Assembly: GCA_934409175.1 (NCBI GenBank)
Contig: CAKRVX010000009.1
Coordinates: 1-41,490 of the forward strand
From: an uncultured Blautia sp.
Lineage (GTDB): Bacteria; Bacillota; Clostridia; Lachnospirales; Lachnospiraceae
Length of the DNA stretch: 41,490 bases
Direction of reading: 5' to 3'
Shown: positions 6,733 through 24,692 of the stretch, piece by piece
How the letters are laid out: each line of letters begins with the position of its first letter
Numbering within the stretch: position 1 is the first letter of the stretch
Position numbers and translations under genes: made by a program
Notes under the pieces: generated by a model
Told to the model about the DNA's origin: nothing
The model's input: the letters and a program-made list of their open reading frames with translations, nothing else
Database searches by the model: none

Positions 6733-7030
6733 CAATAAACAATAACTGAACAACATACGAAAATGCAATGACAGGGAGGAGTATATAACATTGTGAAGCG
6801 CAGAGAGAAAGCGGCAGGTGGAAGCTTTCGTGAACGAGTTATAGAAGTAGCCCTCGAGCAGTGATCCCAACGGTATATTATTAATATGCCAAGTAGGCGT
6901 CAACGTCAGTTCCACGTTACTGGAACACAGTATATCAGTACTGATAAAGTGCAGAGTAAAAACTCTGAATACAGGTGGTACCGCGGAACAGTTTTCGCCC
7001 TGGGCAAACAGCCCGGGGCGTTTTTTTTCG
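6733..7030 (+). promoter_or_regulatory. T-box leader controlling ilvB
   Basis: The leader contains the hallmark T-box sequence GGTGGTACCGCG (6974-6985), which pairs with the uncharged tRNA acceptor end. It precedes a competing terminator (6996-7028). Upstream lie AGAGAG and GGTGGAAG, typical of Stem I. A CTC triplet at 6853-6855, followed by a purine, sits where the specifier codon could be. This would imply sensing of tRNA-Leu, which suits a branched-chain amino acid operon. The T-box assignment is firm; the specifier is tentative because Stem I was not folded. Confidence 0.93.
6996..7028 (+). terminator. T-box attenuator terminator
   Basis: CGCCCTGGGC and GCCCGGGGCG form a GC-rich stem with a five-base loop (AAACA), followed by eight T residues. 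It is mutually exclusive with the antiterminator formed by the T-box sequence just upstream. Confidence 0.92.
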
Positions 7031-7063: not shown

Positions 7064-8782
7064 ATGAAACAAATATCCGGCAACAAACTTTTAGTCAAAG
7101 CCTTAAAAGAAGAAGGTGTAGAATATCTTTTCGGCTATCCCGGTGCCTGCACCATCGACATCAGTGATGAACTTTACAAACAAAATGACGTAAAGATCAT
7201 TCTCCCACGTCATGAACAGGCTCTTGTCCATGAAGCCGATGCATATGCCAGAACCACTGGAAAAGTGGGAGTATGTCTTGTAACCAGCGGTCCTGGAGCT
7301 ACCAATCTCGTAACTGGCCTCGCGACTGCCAACTACGACAGTGTCCCTCTTGTATGCTTTACAGGTCAGGTAGCCCGTCATCTTATCGGAAATGACGCAT
7401 TCCAGGAAGTAGACATCGTAGGGATCACCCGCAGCATCACTAAATATGGTGTAACGGTTCGCAGACGTGAGGATCTTGGCCGTATTATCAAAGAAGCATT
7501 CTATATTGCCCGTACCGGACGTCCTGGTCCTGTTCTTATTGACCTGCCGAAAGATGTTATGGCAGAACTGGGCAGTGCTGAATATCCGAAGAATGTCAAT
7601 ATCCGCGGATACAAACCAAACACAGATGTCCATATCGGACAGCTTAAACGTGCCCTGAAAGTTTTATATAAAGCAAAACGCCCGTTATTTCTTGCAGGAG
7701 GTGGTGTTGTAATTTCCCGTGCACATGAAATTTTCCGTGAAGTAGTGGAGAAGACAAATGTTCCGGTTGTTACAACAGTAATGGGAAAAGGCGCCATTCC
7801 GACAGATCATCCACTCTATATTGGAAATCTGGGTATGCATGGGGCTTATGCAGCAAATATGGCAGTCAGCAACTGCGATGTGCTTTTTTCTATTGGAACT
7901 CGATTTAATGACCGAATCACAGGAAAACTTCATGAGTTTGCACCCCATGCGCAGATTGTTCATATTGACATTGATACGGCATCCATTTCCCGAAATATTC
8001 AGGTGGATATTCCCATCGTTGCAGATGCAAAAGAAGCTATTACAAAGATGAATGAATATGTTCAGGAATGTTCCACTGGCAAATGGCTGAATCAGATCAA
8101 AGAATGGAAAGAGGAACATCCGCTGAAAATGCGTCCAAATGATGTCTTAAGTCCGATGGATATTCTGAAAGAGATCAATGAGAAGTTTGAGAACAGTATT
8201 ATTGTTACGGATGTAGGACAGCATCAGATGCTGGTTTCTCAGTATGCAGAAGTGACGGAAGGAAAACAGATGATCATGTCCGGTGGTCTGGGAACCATGG
8301 GATACGGACTTCCGGGCGGAATCGGAGCCAAGATTGGAAATCCTGACAGACCGGTTATTGTAATTTCCGGTGACGGTGGTGTCCAGATGAATATTCAGGA
8401 GCTTGCAACAGCAGTGCTGGAAGAACTTCCGGTGATTCTGTGTATCTTTAATAACGAATATCTGGGAATGGTACGTCAGTGGCAGAAACTTTTCTATGGC
8501 AAACGTTATGCGATGACAAACTTACGTGCCGGAGCACTTTCACGTCGTACAGAAGGTATGGAGTATCCGCAGTATACTCCGGATTTTATCAAACTTGCAG
8601 AAAGTTACAGAGCAAAAGGTATCCGTGTAACAAAGAAAGAAGAAATCGCGGCAGCTTTTGAGGAAGCAAAGAAAAATACAAAAGCACCTACAGTAATCGA
8701 ATTTATTATTGATCCGGAGGAAATGGTTTATCCTATGATCAAACCAGGAGGAACTCTGGAAGATATGATCATGGATTGTTAA
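7064..8782 (+). CDS. ilvB: Acetolactate synthase large (catalytic) subunit
   Basis: This 572-residue, full-length enzyme condenses two pyruvates, or pyruvate with 2-oxobutyrate, in the first common step of valine, leucine and isoleucine synthesis. It uses thiamine diphosphate. The catalytic glutamate is E51 in LPRHEQ. The ThDP/Mg-binding motif GDGG...N is near residues 445-475 (GDGGVQMNIQEL ending in IFNN). An FAD-type central domain lies between. The start has an AAAGGAGGT site. It is controlled by the T-box leader and followed by the regulatory subunit 18 bases downstream. The N-terminal GYPGACTIDISDE differs from the more usual GYPGGAVLPIYD, a lineage feature rather than a defect. Confidence 0.97.
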   Translation: MKQISGNKLLVKALKEEGVEYLFGYPGACTIDISDELYKQNDVKIILPRHEQALVHEADAYARTTGKVGVCLVTSGPGATNLVTGLATANYDSVPLVCFTGQVARHLIGNDAFQEVDIVGITRSITKYGVTVRRREDLGRIIKEAFYIARTGRPGPVLIDLPKDVMAELGSAEYPKNVNIRGYKPNTDVHIGQLKRALKVLYKAKRPLFLAGGGVVISRAHEIFREVVEKTNVPVVTTVMGKGAIPTDHPLYIGNLGMHGAYAANMAVSNCDVLFSIGTRFNDRITGKLHEFAPHAQIVHIDIDTASISRNIQVDIPIVADAKEAITKMNEYVQECSTGKWLNQIKEWKEEHPLKMRPNDVLSPMDILKEINEKFENSIIVTDVGQHQMLVSQYAEVTEGKQMIMSGGLGTMGYGLPGGIGAKIGNPDRPVIVISGDGGVQMNIQELATAVLEELPVILCIFNNEYLGMVRQWQKLFYGKRYAMTNLRAGALSRRTEGMEYPQYTPDFIKLAESYRAKGIRVTKKEEIAAAFEEAKKNTKAPTVIEFIIDPEEMVYPMIKPGGTLEDMIMDC

Positions 8783-21760: not shown

Positions 21761-22120
21761 TCAGGCGTTCTGTTCATTCCTGCGTTTATATTCTTCACCC
21801 CACGCCCACATGGCATCCATAATCGGCTTCAGACTATACCCGACATCTGTCAATGTATATTCCACCCGTGGCGGTACTTCTGCATAAATCTTACGGGTAA
21901 GCAGACCGGATTCTTCCATCTGGCGAAGCTGGGAAGTGAGAACTTTCTGGCTTACATGTCCGATAGATTTCTTCAATTCACCGAAGCGCTTAGTCCCCTG
22001 CAAAAGATCTCGCAGGATCAGAACTTTCCACTTATCACTGATCAAAGTCAGAGTTGTTTCTACCGGACATGTCGGAAGTTCTTTTGCTGAAGTTTCAGAT
22101 TTATCTTTGATATTTTCCAT
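21761..22120 (-). CDS. HxlR-family transcriptional regulator
   Basis: This 119-residue winged-helix protein has C18 in TCPVETTL, the cysteine position that senses reactive electrophiles or oxidants in many HxlR/YodB-type regulators. Then comes the HxlR core (SDKWKVLILRDLLQGTKRFGELKKSI, VSQKVLTSQLRQMEESGLLTRK, PPRVEYTLTDVGYSL). It is divergent from the flavin-binding protein, macrodomain and sirtuin genes and likely binds the inverted repeat at 22156-22187, regulating itself and that operon. The inducing signal is unknown; C18 makes thiol stress plausible. Confidence 0.93.
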   Translation of the reverse strand: MENIKDKSETSAKELPTCPVETTLTLISDKWKVLILRDLLQGTKRFGELKKSIGHVSQKVLTSQLRQMEESGLLTRKIYAEVPPRVEYTLTDVGYSLKPIMDAMWAWGEEYKRRNEQNA

Positions 22121-22155
22121 GAAAAACCTCCATTTTACACAATAGTATCTTAAAG

Positions 22156-22187
22156 GTAACTACAGCACTTTATTGTGCTTACTTTAC
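22156..22187. promoter_or_regulatory. Candidate HxlR operator
   Basis: An inverted repeat with outer GTAA/TTAC and inner AGCAC-TTTATT-GTGCT arms. It lies between the two divergent genes and overlaps the -35 box of the rightward promoter. Spacing of the half-sites is compatible with a dimeric winged-helix protein. Confidence 0.5.
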
Positions 22188-22211
22188 GATTTGTACTTAT
22201 GGATTTATTAT
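22183..22211 (+). promoter_or_regulatory. Promoter of the macrodomain-sirtuin operon
   Basis: TTTACG (22183-22188) and TATTAT (22206-22211) have 17-base spacing. The -35 box lies inside the right arm of the operator, consistent with repression by occlusion. Confidence 0.5.
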
Positions 22212-22341
22212 AGAGTCATCGAAAGGGAAAAGCAATCATAAAAAACAAAACACCTTTCAAACTCATAAATAAACCTGTTGTTCGCAGCGTAAACAGCAGA
22301 GCGGATAACAGCCAAACCTAAGAAATATGGAGGAATTCAAA

Positions 22342-22737
22342 ATGAAAAAAGTAGTAGAATTTTTAAATGAGAACCCGGTACAGTATCTTGCAACAGTAGG
22401 ACGTGACGGAAAAGCAAAATGCCGCCCATTCATGTTTGCAGGCGAACTTGATGGCAAATTATGGTTCTGCACAAACAACCAGAAAGATGTATACAAAGAT
22501 ATGCAACAGAACCCGGAAATTGAAATTTCCGTATCCAGCCCGGCTTACGCATGGATCCGTCTGAACGGAAAAGCAGTATTCGAAAACAACATGGCAGCAA
22601 AAGAAATGTGCATCGCCAACCCGATCGTAAAAGGTCAGTACCAGACAGCAGATAACCCGATTTTTGAGGTATTTTATCTGGAGAATCCACACGGTGTAAT
22701 CGCCGACTTCTCCGGTAACCCGCCATATGAATTCTAA
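22342..22737 (+). CDS. Pyridoxamine 5'-phosphate oxidase-like FMN-binding protein
   Basis: The ATG at 22342 is preferred because the GGAGGA site lies 7 bases before it; an upstream in-frame ATG overlaps that site. The 131-residue protein has the split-barrel flavin-binding pattern: VVEFLNENPVQYLATVGRDGKAKCRPF, then GKLWFCTNNQKDVYKDMQQNP, then WIRLNGKAVFENN. Such small proteins bind FMN or F420 and often reduce quinones or other electrophiles. It is the first gene of the operon controlled by the HxlR regulator and is followed 15 bases later by the macrodomain gene. Confidence 0.9.
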   Translation: MKKVVEFLNENPVQYLATVGRDGKAKCRPFMFAGELDGKLWFCTNNQKDVYKDMQQNPEIEISVSSPAYAWIRLNGKAVFENNMAAKEMCIANPIVKGQYQTADNPIFEVFYLENPHGVIADFSGNPPYEF

Positions 22738-22752
22738 ATCATTTGTGTTAAG

Positions 22753-23463
22753 ATGCTCATATACATAATACAGCGAAGCGGAACATCTCTGCTTCGCGGT
22801 CTGATGAATATCCGTCCGGCAAGAAGAAATAATCCAGATTTTCAGCAGATCCAGGATTCCTATTTAGCAGAAGAAACGAAGCAGAAAGGAATCGTAACTT
22901 TAGAAGAACTATCTCCGATTCAGCCAGGAATTTATGTATGGCAGGGCGACATTACAACCTTACAGTGCGATGCCATTGTAAACGCAGCCAACAGCGGAAT
23001 GACAGGATGCTACGTTCCAAACCACCGCTGTATCGACAATTGCATTCATACATTTGCAGGAACACAGCTGCGTCTTGAATGTGCAGAAATAATACGAAGA
23101 CAGGGACATGAAGAACCTGCCGGACGGGCAAAGATCACACTGGGATATAATCTTCCATGCAAATACATTCTGCACACTGTTGGTCCGATCATTCAGGGCA
23201 GATTAACCACGAATGACTGCAGACTGCTGGCATCCTGCTACCGTTCCTGCCTGGAACTTGCCGCAGAAAATAATCTTGAAAGTGTAGCATTCTGCTGTAT
23301 TTCCACAGGAGAATTCCACTTCCCGAATGACAAAGCAGCAGAAATCGCAGTAACAGAAGTAAGAGCATTTTTACAGAAACAAACAAGTGTAAAGAGGGTA
23401 ATATTCAATGTTTTCAAAGACCTTGACAAAGAAATCTACGAAAGATTACTCAGCACAGACTGA
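22753..23463 (+). CDS. Zinc-containing macrodomain ADP-ribosyl hydrolase
   Basis: This 236-residue protein binds ADP-ribose with GDIT (65-68), NAANSGM (77-83) and CISTGEFHFP (near 195). The diagnostic zinc site is C86, H91 and C93 in GCYVPNHRCID, which defines the Zn-macro class known to remove ADP-ribose placed by SirTM sirtuins. The N-terminal helical part (LLRGLMNIRP..., FQQIQDSYLAEE) is also typical. It is about 30 residues shorter at the N-terminus than the staphylococcal relative, and the ATG has no clear ribosome site; coupling with the gene 15 bases upstream is likely. Its last 56 bases overlap the sirtuin gene, which supports a coupled writer-eraser pair. Confidence 0.94.
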   Translation: MLIYIIQRSGTSLLRGLMNIRPARRNNPDFQQIQDSYLAEETKQKGIVTLEELSPIQPGIYVWQGDITTLQCDAIVNAANSGMTGCYVPNHRCIDNCIHTFAGTQLRLECAEIIRRQGHEEPAGRAKITLGYNLPCKYILHTVGPIIQGRLTTNDCRLLASCYRSCLELAAENNLESVAFCCISTGEFHFPNDKAAEIAVTEVRAFLQKQTSVKRVIFNVFKDLDKEIYERLLSTD

Positions 23464-24325
23464 GCAGTTAAAACAGAAAATAAAGGATGCAGATGCAGTG
23501 ATCATAGGTGCAGGAGCGGGTCTGTCCACATCAGCAGGATTCACTTATTCAGGAGAAAGATTTACCAGACATTTCTCCGACTTTATAAATAAATATGGCT
23601 TCCAGGATATGTATTCCGGGGGCTTTTATCCCTTTGATTCACTGGAAGAACACTGGGCATACTGGAGCCGTTATATTTATATTAACCGATATATGGATGC
23701 ACCGAAACCAGTATATTCAGACTTGTATGATCTGGTAAAAGAGAAAGACTATTTCGTACTTACTACCAACGTAGACCACTGCTTCCAGAAAGCAGAATTT
23801 GATAAACACCGTTTGTTTTATACGCAGGGAGATTACGGTTTATTTCAGTGCTGCACACCATGCCATCAGGATACTTATGATAATGAAGAACTGATCCGTC
23901 AGATGATAGAAGCACAGGGATTCAGCGTTGTTAAAGGTTCGGATGAGCTGATTCAGTCAGGCACATCTCTAAAAATGAAAGTCCCATCAGAACTCGTTCC
24001 TCACTGCCCACAATGCGGCCGTCCAATGACCATGAACCTGCGTGCAGACAACACCTTTGTAGAAGACGAAGGATGGCATCAGGCAGCATTCCGATACGAA
24101 GATTTTCTCCGCCGCCACAAAAACCTCAACATCCTGTTTCTGGAACTTGGTGTAGGCTACAACACGCCCGGCATCATCAAATATCCTTTCTGGCAGATGA
24201 CAGACAAATGGGAAAATGCAAGCTATGCCTGCATTAATGCCGGAGATGCAGCTGTTCCGGAAGAAATTAAAAACAAATCTATCAGCATTAATGGAGACAT
24301 TGGAGAGGTTATCTTAAACTTATAA
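23408..24325 (+). CDS. Class M sirtuin (SirTM), protein ADP-ribosyltransferase
   Basis: This 305-residue protein has a Rossmann NAD-binding loop GAGAGLSTSAGF (34-45) and TTNVDHCF (119-126; N121, D123). At the place of the catalytic His of deacetylase sirtuins it has Q140 in TQGD, the hallmark of SirTM enzymes that ADP-ribosylate rather than deacetylate. Zinc-type cysteines lie in QCCTPCH (147-153) and HCPQCG (near 197-203). In Staphylococcus and Streptococcus SirTM modifies a lipoylated GcvH-L; no such carrier or lipoate ligase is present in this window. The start overlaps the macrodomain gene and has an AGAGGG site. Cytoplasmic. Confidence 0.93.
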   Translation: MFSKTLTKKSTKDYSAQTEQLKQKIKDADAVIIGAGAGLSTSAGFTYSGERFTRHFSDFINKYGFQDMYSGGFYPFDSLEEHWAYWSRYIYINRYMDAPKPVYSDLYDLVKEKDYFVLTTNVDHCFQKAEFDKHRLFYTQGDYGLFQCCTPCHQDTYDNEELIRQMIEAQGFSVVKGSDELIQSGTSLKMKVPSELVPHCPQCGRPMTMNLRADNTFVEDEGWHQAAFRYEDFLRRHKNLNILFLELGVGYNTPGIIKYPFWQMTDKWENASYACINAGDAAVPEEIKNKSISINGDIGEVILNL

Positions 24326-24530: not shown

Positions 24531-24692
24531 TAGTGTACCAACAAGTTGATTTCTTGAACAATCTCGCGTCTAAATTTTTTATTTCCGCGTTGTCGTCGGT
24601 CGCTGTAGCCACCGCTACGCCTCCTTCCTCCGCCTTGAAATAAAGAATTTATCCTGCAAGATTGTTTCAAAAATCAACTTGTCGGCACACTA
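24531..24692. repeat. 162-bp hairpin repeat element, copy 1
   Basis: The ends are TAGTGTACC and GGCACACTA. The left arm (~55 bases) is complementary to the right arm with only scattered mismatches. The apex (about 24586-24637) is nearly the same as in copy 2 at 36118-36280: about 47 of 51 bases match, and it includes the mini-hairpin GTAGC-CACC-GCTAC. The arms have a different sequence from copy 2 but are still self-complementary. It has no coding capacity for a transposase. It lies in the leader of the transporter operon, and its right arm supplies a false upstream start for the binding-protein gene. A MITE- or REP-like element is most likely. Confidence 0.85.

Follow-up and report, generated by a model that had tools for sequence, protein, structure and literature searches.

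A SirTM/Zn-macrodomain pair, probably within an HxlR-type stress regulon, in an uncultured Blautia genome

The window analysed here is a stretch of 41,490 nucleotides from an uncultured Blautia sp. (contig CAKRVX010000009.1 of assembly GCA_934409175.1). The locus of interest within it encodes a class M sirtuin (SirTM) and a Zn-macrodomain protein (Zn-Macro), a putative writer and eraser of protein ADP-ribosylation. The gene of an HxlR-family regulator lies divergent from this pair, and the gene of a PPOX-family protein, PPOX136, stands upstream of it (Table 1). The favoured reading, to which a probability of roughly 0.6 is given, is that the pair is one component of a stress regulon of the HxlR type that many Lachnospiraceae and other Clostridia possess. 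Open reading frame (ORF) calling reproduced the genes, the coordinates and the 56-base overlap of the Zn-Macro and SirTM frames (23408-23463) listed in an initial annotation of this DNA.

Table 1. Features of the SirTM/Zn-Macro locus in the window
Feature	Position	Strand	Basis or remark
HxlR/DUF24-family regulator, 119 aa, Cys18 in CPVE motif	21761..22120	-	PF01638, E 1e-33; structure alignment
44-bp conserved element, candidate HxlR operator	22144..22187	+	full matrix, 41.5 bits
Candidate promoter of PPOX-Macro-SirTM operon	22183..22211	+	sequence match only; candidate -35 TTTACG (22183-22188), 17-bp spacer, -10 TATTAT (22206-22211)
PPOX136, PPOX-family (pyridoxamine phosphate oxidase-like) protein, 136 aa	22327..22737	+	PF01243; 2ig6
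Zn-Macro (predicted ADP-ribosyl hydrolase), 236 aa	22753..23463	+	zinc loop and Dx3H intact; N-terminal helical extension damaged
SirTM (class M sirtuin), 305 aa, full length	23408..24325	+	protein ADP-ribosyltransferase by homology

The best match of the SirTM among solved structures is SpySirTM (5a3a, E 7e-72); it also matches a SirTM-macrodomain protein (8rsn, E 4e-24) and has no Pfam match at E<=0.001. Class M sirtuins are marked by a Gln replacing the catalytic His, by Asn and Arg partners and by a GVGx[NT]TP loop, and mutation of Asn118, Gln137 or Arg192 disables SpySirTM (PMC4518038). The three residues are kept in the window as N121, Q140 and R212, the loop reads GVGYNTP, and the linkage to a Zn-Macro that goes with the class is present as the 56-bp overlap. 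The match to 5a3a, together with the class-defining residues and loop, bears out the identity proposed in the initial annotation, and the enzyme is predicted by homology to be a protein ADP-ribosyltransferase, the activity that, with no deacylation, goes with class M.

The lineage of the Zn-Macro is clear. Its best solved matches are 8rsi (E 4e-74) and 5kiv (E 4e-73), and it passes the NCBIfam model NF003163 with 335.9 bits against a cut-off of 272. As defined in PMC11490716, the Cx4HxC zinc loop is found as C86-YVPN-H91-R-C93 and the Dx3H dyad as D95/H99; a NAAN motif occupies residues 77-80. These features confirm the macrodomain type that had been proposed. The N-terminal three-helix extension is incomplete in the window copy, the remainder of the protein being present. 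Among the 50 nearest Macro proteins (P0122-P0171, 89-95% identity; closest named relative a protein of Ruminococcus sp. AF41-9, 92%), 48 have 259 aa, and all 13 aligned relatives share a homologous N-terminal stretch of about 35 residues where the window form has 12 unrelated ones, beginning 15 bp past the PPOX136 stop. Loss of the first helical segment may impair the eraser function. Indeed, deletion of residues 1-70 of SauMacro abolishes zinc binding and activity (PMC11490716), so the shortened protein could be taken to mean that the locus is decaying and that the pair has ceased to function in this strain. This is improbable: the stretch lost is shorter than the SauMacro deletion, the remaining checked motifs of both enzymes are intact, the SirTM is full length, and the assembly may be at fault here (2 contigs are listed with the 236-aa form, the longest of them as long as the window).

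The regulator combines an HxlR domain with a conserved N-terminal cysteine and so belongs to the HxlR/DUF24 family, and the NCBIfam models of RrpB and RrpA match it below their cut-offs. Cys18, within TCPVETT, aligns with the CPVE cysteine of Bacillus subtilis YybR (4a5m), which we take to be HypR, in an alignment that also includes HxlR and other structures. An N-terminal cysteine is kept in 49 of 50 covered rows, the window's included. The earlier claim of an HxlR regulator with a candidate sensing cysteine is borne out by the PF01638 match and the alignment with YybR. HypR, YodB and CatR sense hypochlorous acid, quinones and diamide via an N-terminal cysteine, and HxlR itself serves aldehyde detoxification (PMC6943732).

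The neighbourhood survey covered the best 80 of at least 591 SirTM relatives in genome contigs (L004-L083), found with a 12-row query alignment from which P0003, P0006 and P0052 of an earlier 15-row alignment had been left out. Three database proteins of 463-510 aa (P0001, P0003 and P0022) are read as tandem, partly duplicated SirTMs. Neighbours were counted within 5 kb of the SirTM, with a threshold of 70 bits for HxlR; since only 62 of the 80 loci have 4.9 kb of upstream sequence, the counts are lower bounds. HxlR lies upstream of the SirTM in 37 loci and downstream in 3, and a macrodomain gene upstream in 53 and downstream in 5. Redox and related enzymes are also found upstream: PPOX206 (a PPOX domain with a 4Fe-4S ferredoxin domain) in 21 loci, a nitroreductase in 13, PPOX136 in 6, an NmrA-like protein in 5, a quinone reductase in 4 and a SnoaL-like protein in 3, with at least one of the six in 39. 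The fullest window-like operons, from the genus of G001 (L226 and L232), hold, in this order, HxlR, the 44-bp element, PPOX136, PPOX206, Macro and SirTM. The HxlR/redox-protein arrangement is thus a recurrent alternative to the lipoyl operon in Clostridia, as had been suspected from the window.

The intergenic regions adjoining HxlR have in common an ungapped 44-bp element, which in the window overlaps the candidate -35 of the PPOX-Macro-SirTM operon. A strict regular expression recovered it in only 7 of 26 HxlRa and 22 of 54 HxlRb regions and was replaced by a matrix of 45 bits, built from 70 regions (22 HxlRa-type and 48 HxlRb-type). Scores above 15 bits are reached in 21/22 HxlRa and 37/48 HxlRb regions, with a maximum of -1.6 in 1400 shuffles. 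A matrix built from HxlRb regions only gives the window 12.9 bits (maximum of 2200 shuffles 1.8) and scores 4.4 to 33.2 in 21 of the 22 HxlRa regions, the window's among them; the remaining one, L134, scores -16.8. At a threshold of 18 bits, the element lies upstream of the SirTM on the operon strand in 45 of the 80 loci, downstream in 4 and on the opposite strand in 1. Thirteen of these 45 loci have no HxlR within 5 kb upstream, and their sites lie outside the training regions; L025 and L048 among them have HxlR downstream, and L063 has an HxlR fragment upstream.

The exact core of the element was also searched in 397 genomes of one family (that of G002), in which the best SirTM identity among the matches listed is 75%. 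It occurs at 76 sites in 66 genomes, compared with 4 for the reversed pattern, and at least 52 of the 76 lie within 6 kb of a SirTM or of a radical S-adenosylmethionine (SAM) protein of the rSAM_ACGX family among the matches listed. Of the other 24 sites 20 were fetched, and 19 of these precede the same gene repertoire. The next recognised gene, called by tblastn and at some sites with 32-47% identity, is of the PPOX206 type at 7 sites, NmrA-like at 5, PPOX136 at 3 and SirTM at 2; the last three are a Macro gene 1.1 kb away, a SnoaL-like gene (matrix score only 15) and L239, cupin-like by eye. At L233, L242, L245 and L248, the element and a PPOX206-type gene are followed, judged by eye, by apparent ABC transporter permease genes, mostly with an ATP-binding gene.

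The element is therefore common to two HxlR subtypes and precedes SirTM loci whether or not they have an HxlR of their own. Its presence ahead of SirTM/Zn-Macro even in loci that lack a nearby HxlR makes it probable that the pair is a member of an HxlR-type stress regulon. In such a regulon HxlR would bind the element and, by analogy with HypR, YodB and CatR, would sense thiol-reactive, electrophilic or quinone stress via Cys18. Stress would induce SirTM and Zn-Macro along with flavin/NAD(P) enzymes of detoxification; SirTM would mono-ADP-ribosylate an acidic residue of a target, from which Zn-Macro would remove the modification. The target would here be a protein encoded elsewhere, probably neither lipoyl-GcvH-L nor a dedicated PPOX136.

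The PPOX protein had been put forward as a possible substrate of the pair. PPOX136 matches PF01243 at 50.2 bits and has a sole solved match, 2ig6, a NimC/NimA-family protein (E 4e-20). The gene beside the pair is thus a PPOX-family gene as annotated, and flavin binding is probable by homology only. Matches to PPOX136 reach 94% in the genus of G001 and at most 38% in that of G196, and these searches met no locus nearly identical to the window's. Modification of this neighbour by SirTM and its release by Zn-Macro would fit the position of its gene directly upstream of the pair and the presence of PPOX136 or PPOX206 relatives upstream in a minority of loci. Against it, PPOX136 is missing from most loci, where unrelated enzymes stand instead; it occurs with HxlR and the element in L237 and L251, where the pair is absent; and PPOX206-type genes follow the element without the pair in 7 of the 20 fetched sites. 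On a quick SirTM tree (86 rows out of 91 loci offered), partner labels require 33 changes, compared with a shuffled mean of 41.7 and a value as low in 0/200 shuffles; partners are somewhat clustered and have repeatedly been exchanged. Because the local enzyme is exchangeable between loci and PPOX136 is found without the pair, a dedicated local substrate is distinctly unlikely, the flavin protein was rejected as the most likely target, and PPOX136 is probably co-regulated.

A second possibility is that a lipoylated GcvH-type carrier, encoded elsewhere, has remained the target of the pair, the extended operon having become unlinked. GcvH-L is the only SirTM target known, and the targets of other SirTM/Zn-Macro systems are described as elusive (2024, PMC11490716). 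When three GcvH and two LplA proteins of relatives were used as queries, tblastn gave no match in the window or the 80 loci, as expected from the initial annotation, which had noted a pair without lipoyl-carrier genes; a very divergent GcvH-L could escape this search. Among 20 genomes of relatives, which as drafts may miss genes, GcvH exceeds 100 bits in 4 and LplA is found at E<=0.001 in 3, two of them above cut-off; when G089, with no listed SirTM, is excluded, GcvH is found in 3 of 19 and LplA in 3. Nine further genomes, 8 of them with a PPOX136 relative, gave only two 35-residue GcvH matches (maximum 22.3 bits, one just above cut-off) and LplA in 1. G010, G014 and G218 do hold both GcvH and LplA, the LplA of G010 being below cut-off. 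Conversely, G430 and G458, with SirTM contigs of 3.7 and 3.3 Mb, lack both genes apart from GcvH-like matches that span 35 residues and score 21-22 bits. Moreover, MorMacro, the sole Zn-Macro of a minimal operon assayed, and fusion-protein Zn-Macros failed to demodify SpyGcvH-L (PMC11490716). As most of the relatives searched lack full-length GcvH and LplA, the substrate is likely to be something other than a lipoyl protein, and the lipoyl carrier was set aside as very improbable. The earlier suggestion of a different substrate is thus supported for the relatives, but not in the form of the flavin protein.

A recurrent link of the related loci is to the ACGX system. Its radical SAM gene, rSAM_ACGX, lies upstream of the SirTM in 18 of the 80 loci, in the frequent order divergent HxlR, short peptide, radical SAM, nitroreductase or quinone reductase, PPOX206, Macro and SirTM, with members sometimes missing. 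The peptide has the form MALSN..[ACGxACGAxD..]n, with a Cys-rich repeat. Two radical SAM proteins tested score 576.5 and 596.3 bits with TIGR04340 (rSAM_ACGX, cut-off 400), and one peptide tested scores 77.8 with TIGR04341 (target_ACGX, cut-off 28). In the 397 genomes, rSAM_ACGX is above cut-off in 50, as 52 copies, at least 25 of which have a SirTM within 6 kb among the matches listed; from the other 27 copies 20 were fetched, with a SirTM nearby in 5 and none in 15, so that at least 30 of 52 are linked. Four of the five added SirTMs have 38-46% identity to the window's, and those at L166 and L173 lie on the opposite strand. A pattern search collected 43 distinct peptides with 151 repeat units; at the third position after CG, 123 of these units have Asp and 9 have Glu. 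This is relevant in that the residue of GcvH-L modified by SirTM is acidic (PMC4518038). In ACGX-linked loci, the peptide is a candidate substrate.

A wider proposal would be that the pair in Clostridia has a second class of dithiol carrier as its target, in which ACGX peptides matured by rSAM/SPASM proteins replace lipoyl-GcvH-L. Controlled by HxlR, SirTM would then ADP-ribosylate the acidic residue that comes after CG and adjoins the modified cysteines, and Zn-Macro would reverse this; the PPOX version of the window would be a derivative of this regulon with another carrier. This proposal is doubtful and on balance unlikely. The ACGX label requires 16 changes on the SirTM tree against a shuffled mean of 18.2 (as low in 55/500), at least 6 of them forced by well-supported branches; because partners are repeatedly exchanged on this tree, the link could reflect shared regulation alone. 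The same argument bears on the idea that the substrate in the window's own genome is a radical-SAM-modified ACGX-repeat peptide encoded elsewhere. That idea fits the frequency of the linkage and the grouping of the window SirTM with L007 and the ACGX-linked L040 and L060 (support 81), but it is quite improbable: the window gave no tblastn match of the ACGX radical SAM and no ACGX peptide by pattern, and of the 14 genomes that were searched and have a PPOX136 relative at 80% identity or more, G005 alone holds rSAM_ACGX above its cut-off. In the nine further genomes it was found in 0/9 at E<=1e-60, in a search whose control scan was also empty though the same model matches in other scans. Genome G005 holds PPOX136-Macro-SirTM at L076 and HxlR-ACGX-rSAM at L085/L162, where no SirTM was found; the element is present at both.

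Several points weigh against the regulon reading. The 80 loci are related to one another and are not independent. In 30 of them the 5 kb upstream contain no HxlR and no copy of the element, some contigs ending there, so HxlR control is not universal. The element scores below 15 bits in 11 of the 48 HxlRb regions, and in the cross-subtype comparison the window is second lowest of the 21 positive HxlRa regions. HxlR-family members can act as activators, and the role of HxlR itself is in aldehyde detoxification (PMC6943732). Five genomes that have no full GcvH (G001, G003, G011, G430 and G458) show short GcvH-like matches of 20-23 bits, and the altered Zn-Macro could mean decay of the pair in the window.

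Among known systems, HypR/HypO, YodB/AzoR1-YodC and CatR of B. subtilis resemble the window in having an HxlR-family regulator with an N-terminal Cys that controls, or in the window would control, flavin oxidoreductases. To our knowledge, the regulons of HypR, YodB and CatR hold no ADP-ribosylation pair. The extended SirTM operon of Staphylococcus and Streptococcus (GcvH-L, LplA2, Zn-Macro, SirTM, OYE, LLM; PMC4518038, PMC11490716) shares with the window the overlapping pair, the catalytic motifs, the adjoining redox enzymes and an inferred stress response. The window differs in having HxlR and PPOX in place of GcvH-L and LplA2, and HxlR has 0 occurrences in the text of these two papers. Bacterial SirTM/macrodomain pairs were described in 2015 in independent or extended operons, with Lachnospiraceae among the holders (PMC4518038). 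Lone pairs of minimal operons, such as that of Methanobrevibacter oralis and those of the Lachnospiraceae holders, likewise lack lipoyl genes; the window locus differs from them by its probable regulon, which has a defined element and redox partners that are interchangeable. Since the 2015 and 2024 papers cover independent and minimal operons, a SirTM/Zn-Macro pair that lacks lipoyl genes is by itself no novelty. The ACGX system (TIGR04340, TIGR04341) shares HxlR, the element and the pair in many related loci, but none of its own members was found in the window. What is new relative to the literature covered is the 44-bp element and the ACGX link: in open-licence PMC literature no paper with either was found, those that mention ACGX being unrelated by title, and none of the papers listed for SirTM or Zn-Macro brings in HxlR.

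The shared element and the recurrent ACGX link provide named, testable target candidates in gut bacteria, and the regulator and common control site ease testing of the pair's targets outside staphylococci and streptococci. The element and the link further suggest that gut bacteria use reversible ADP-ribosylation in their response to electrophile or thiol stress. An anti-phage defence reading was rejected, as the four locus proteins gave 0 matches to PADLOC models at E<=0.001.

On mobile elements, 13 stretches of viral contigs fit the SirTM pattern; 3 of the 13 encode a relative, and of 3 stretches that fit a PPOX136 pattern none does. Distant matches occur in 7 of 72,556 plasmid records, none spanning 80% of the query. 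Pairs are annotated on two plasmid-collection records, NZ_CP135163.1 (49995-51365, Roseburia sp. 831b) and NZ_CP068131.1 (73163-73783, Enterococcus casseliflavus).

Elsewhere in the window, an aldo/keto reductase-like stretch from about 19904 (+ strand, 55% match) is probably a remnant; in L007, a 280-aa relative of it follows the SirTM on the other strand. An inverted repeat at 24531-24692, about 200 bp past the SirTM, has 37-nt arms that are 84% complementary, with 88 nt between them, and looks like a small mobile or structured element. A T-box leader (Rfam RF00230, 123.9 bits) lies at 6759-7005 on the + strand, before a thiamine-pyrophosphate enzyme gene at 7064-8782.

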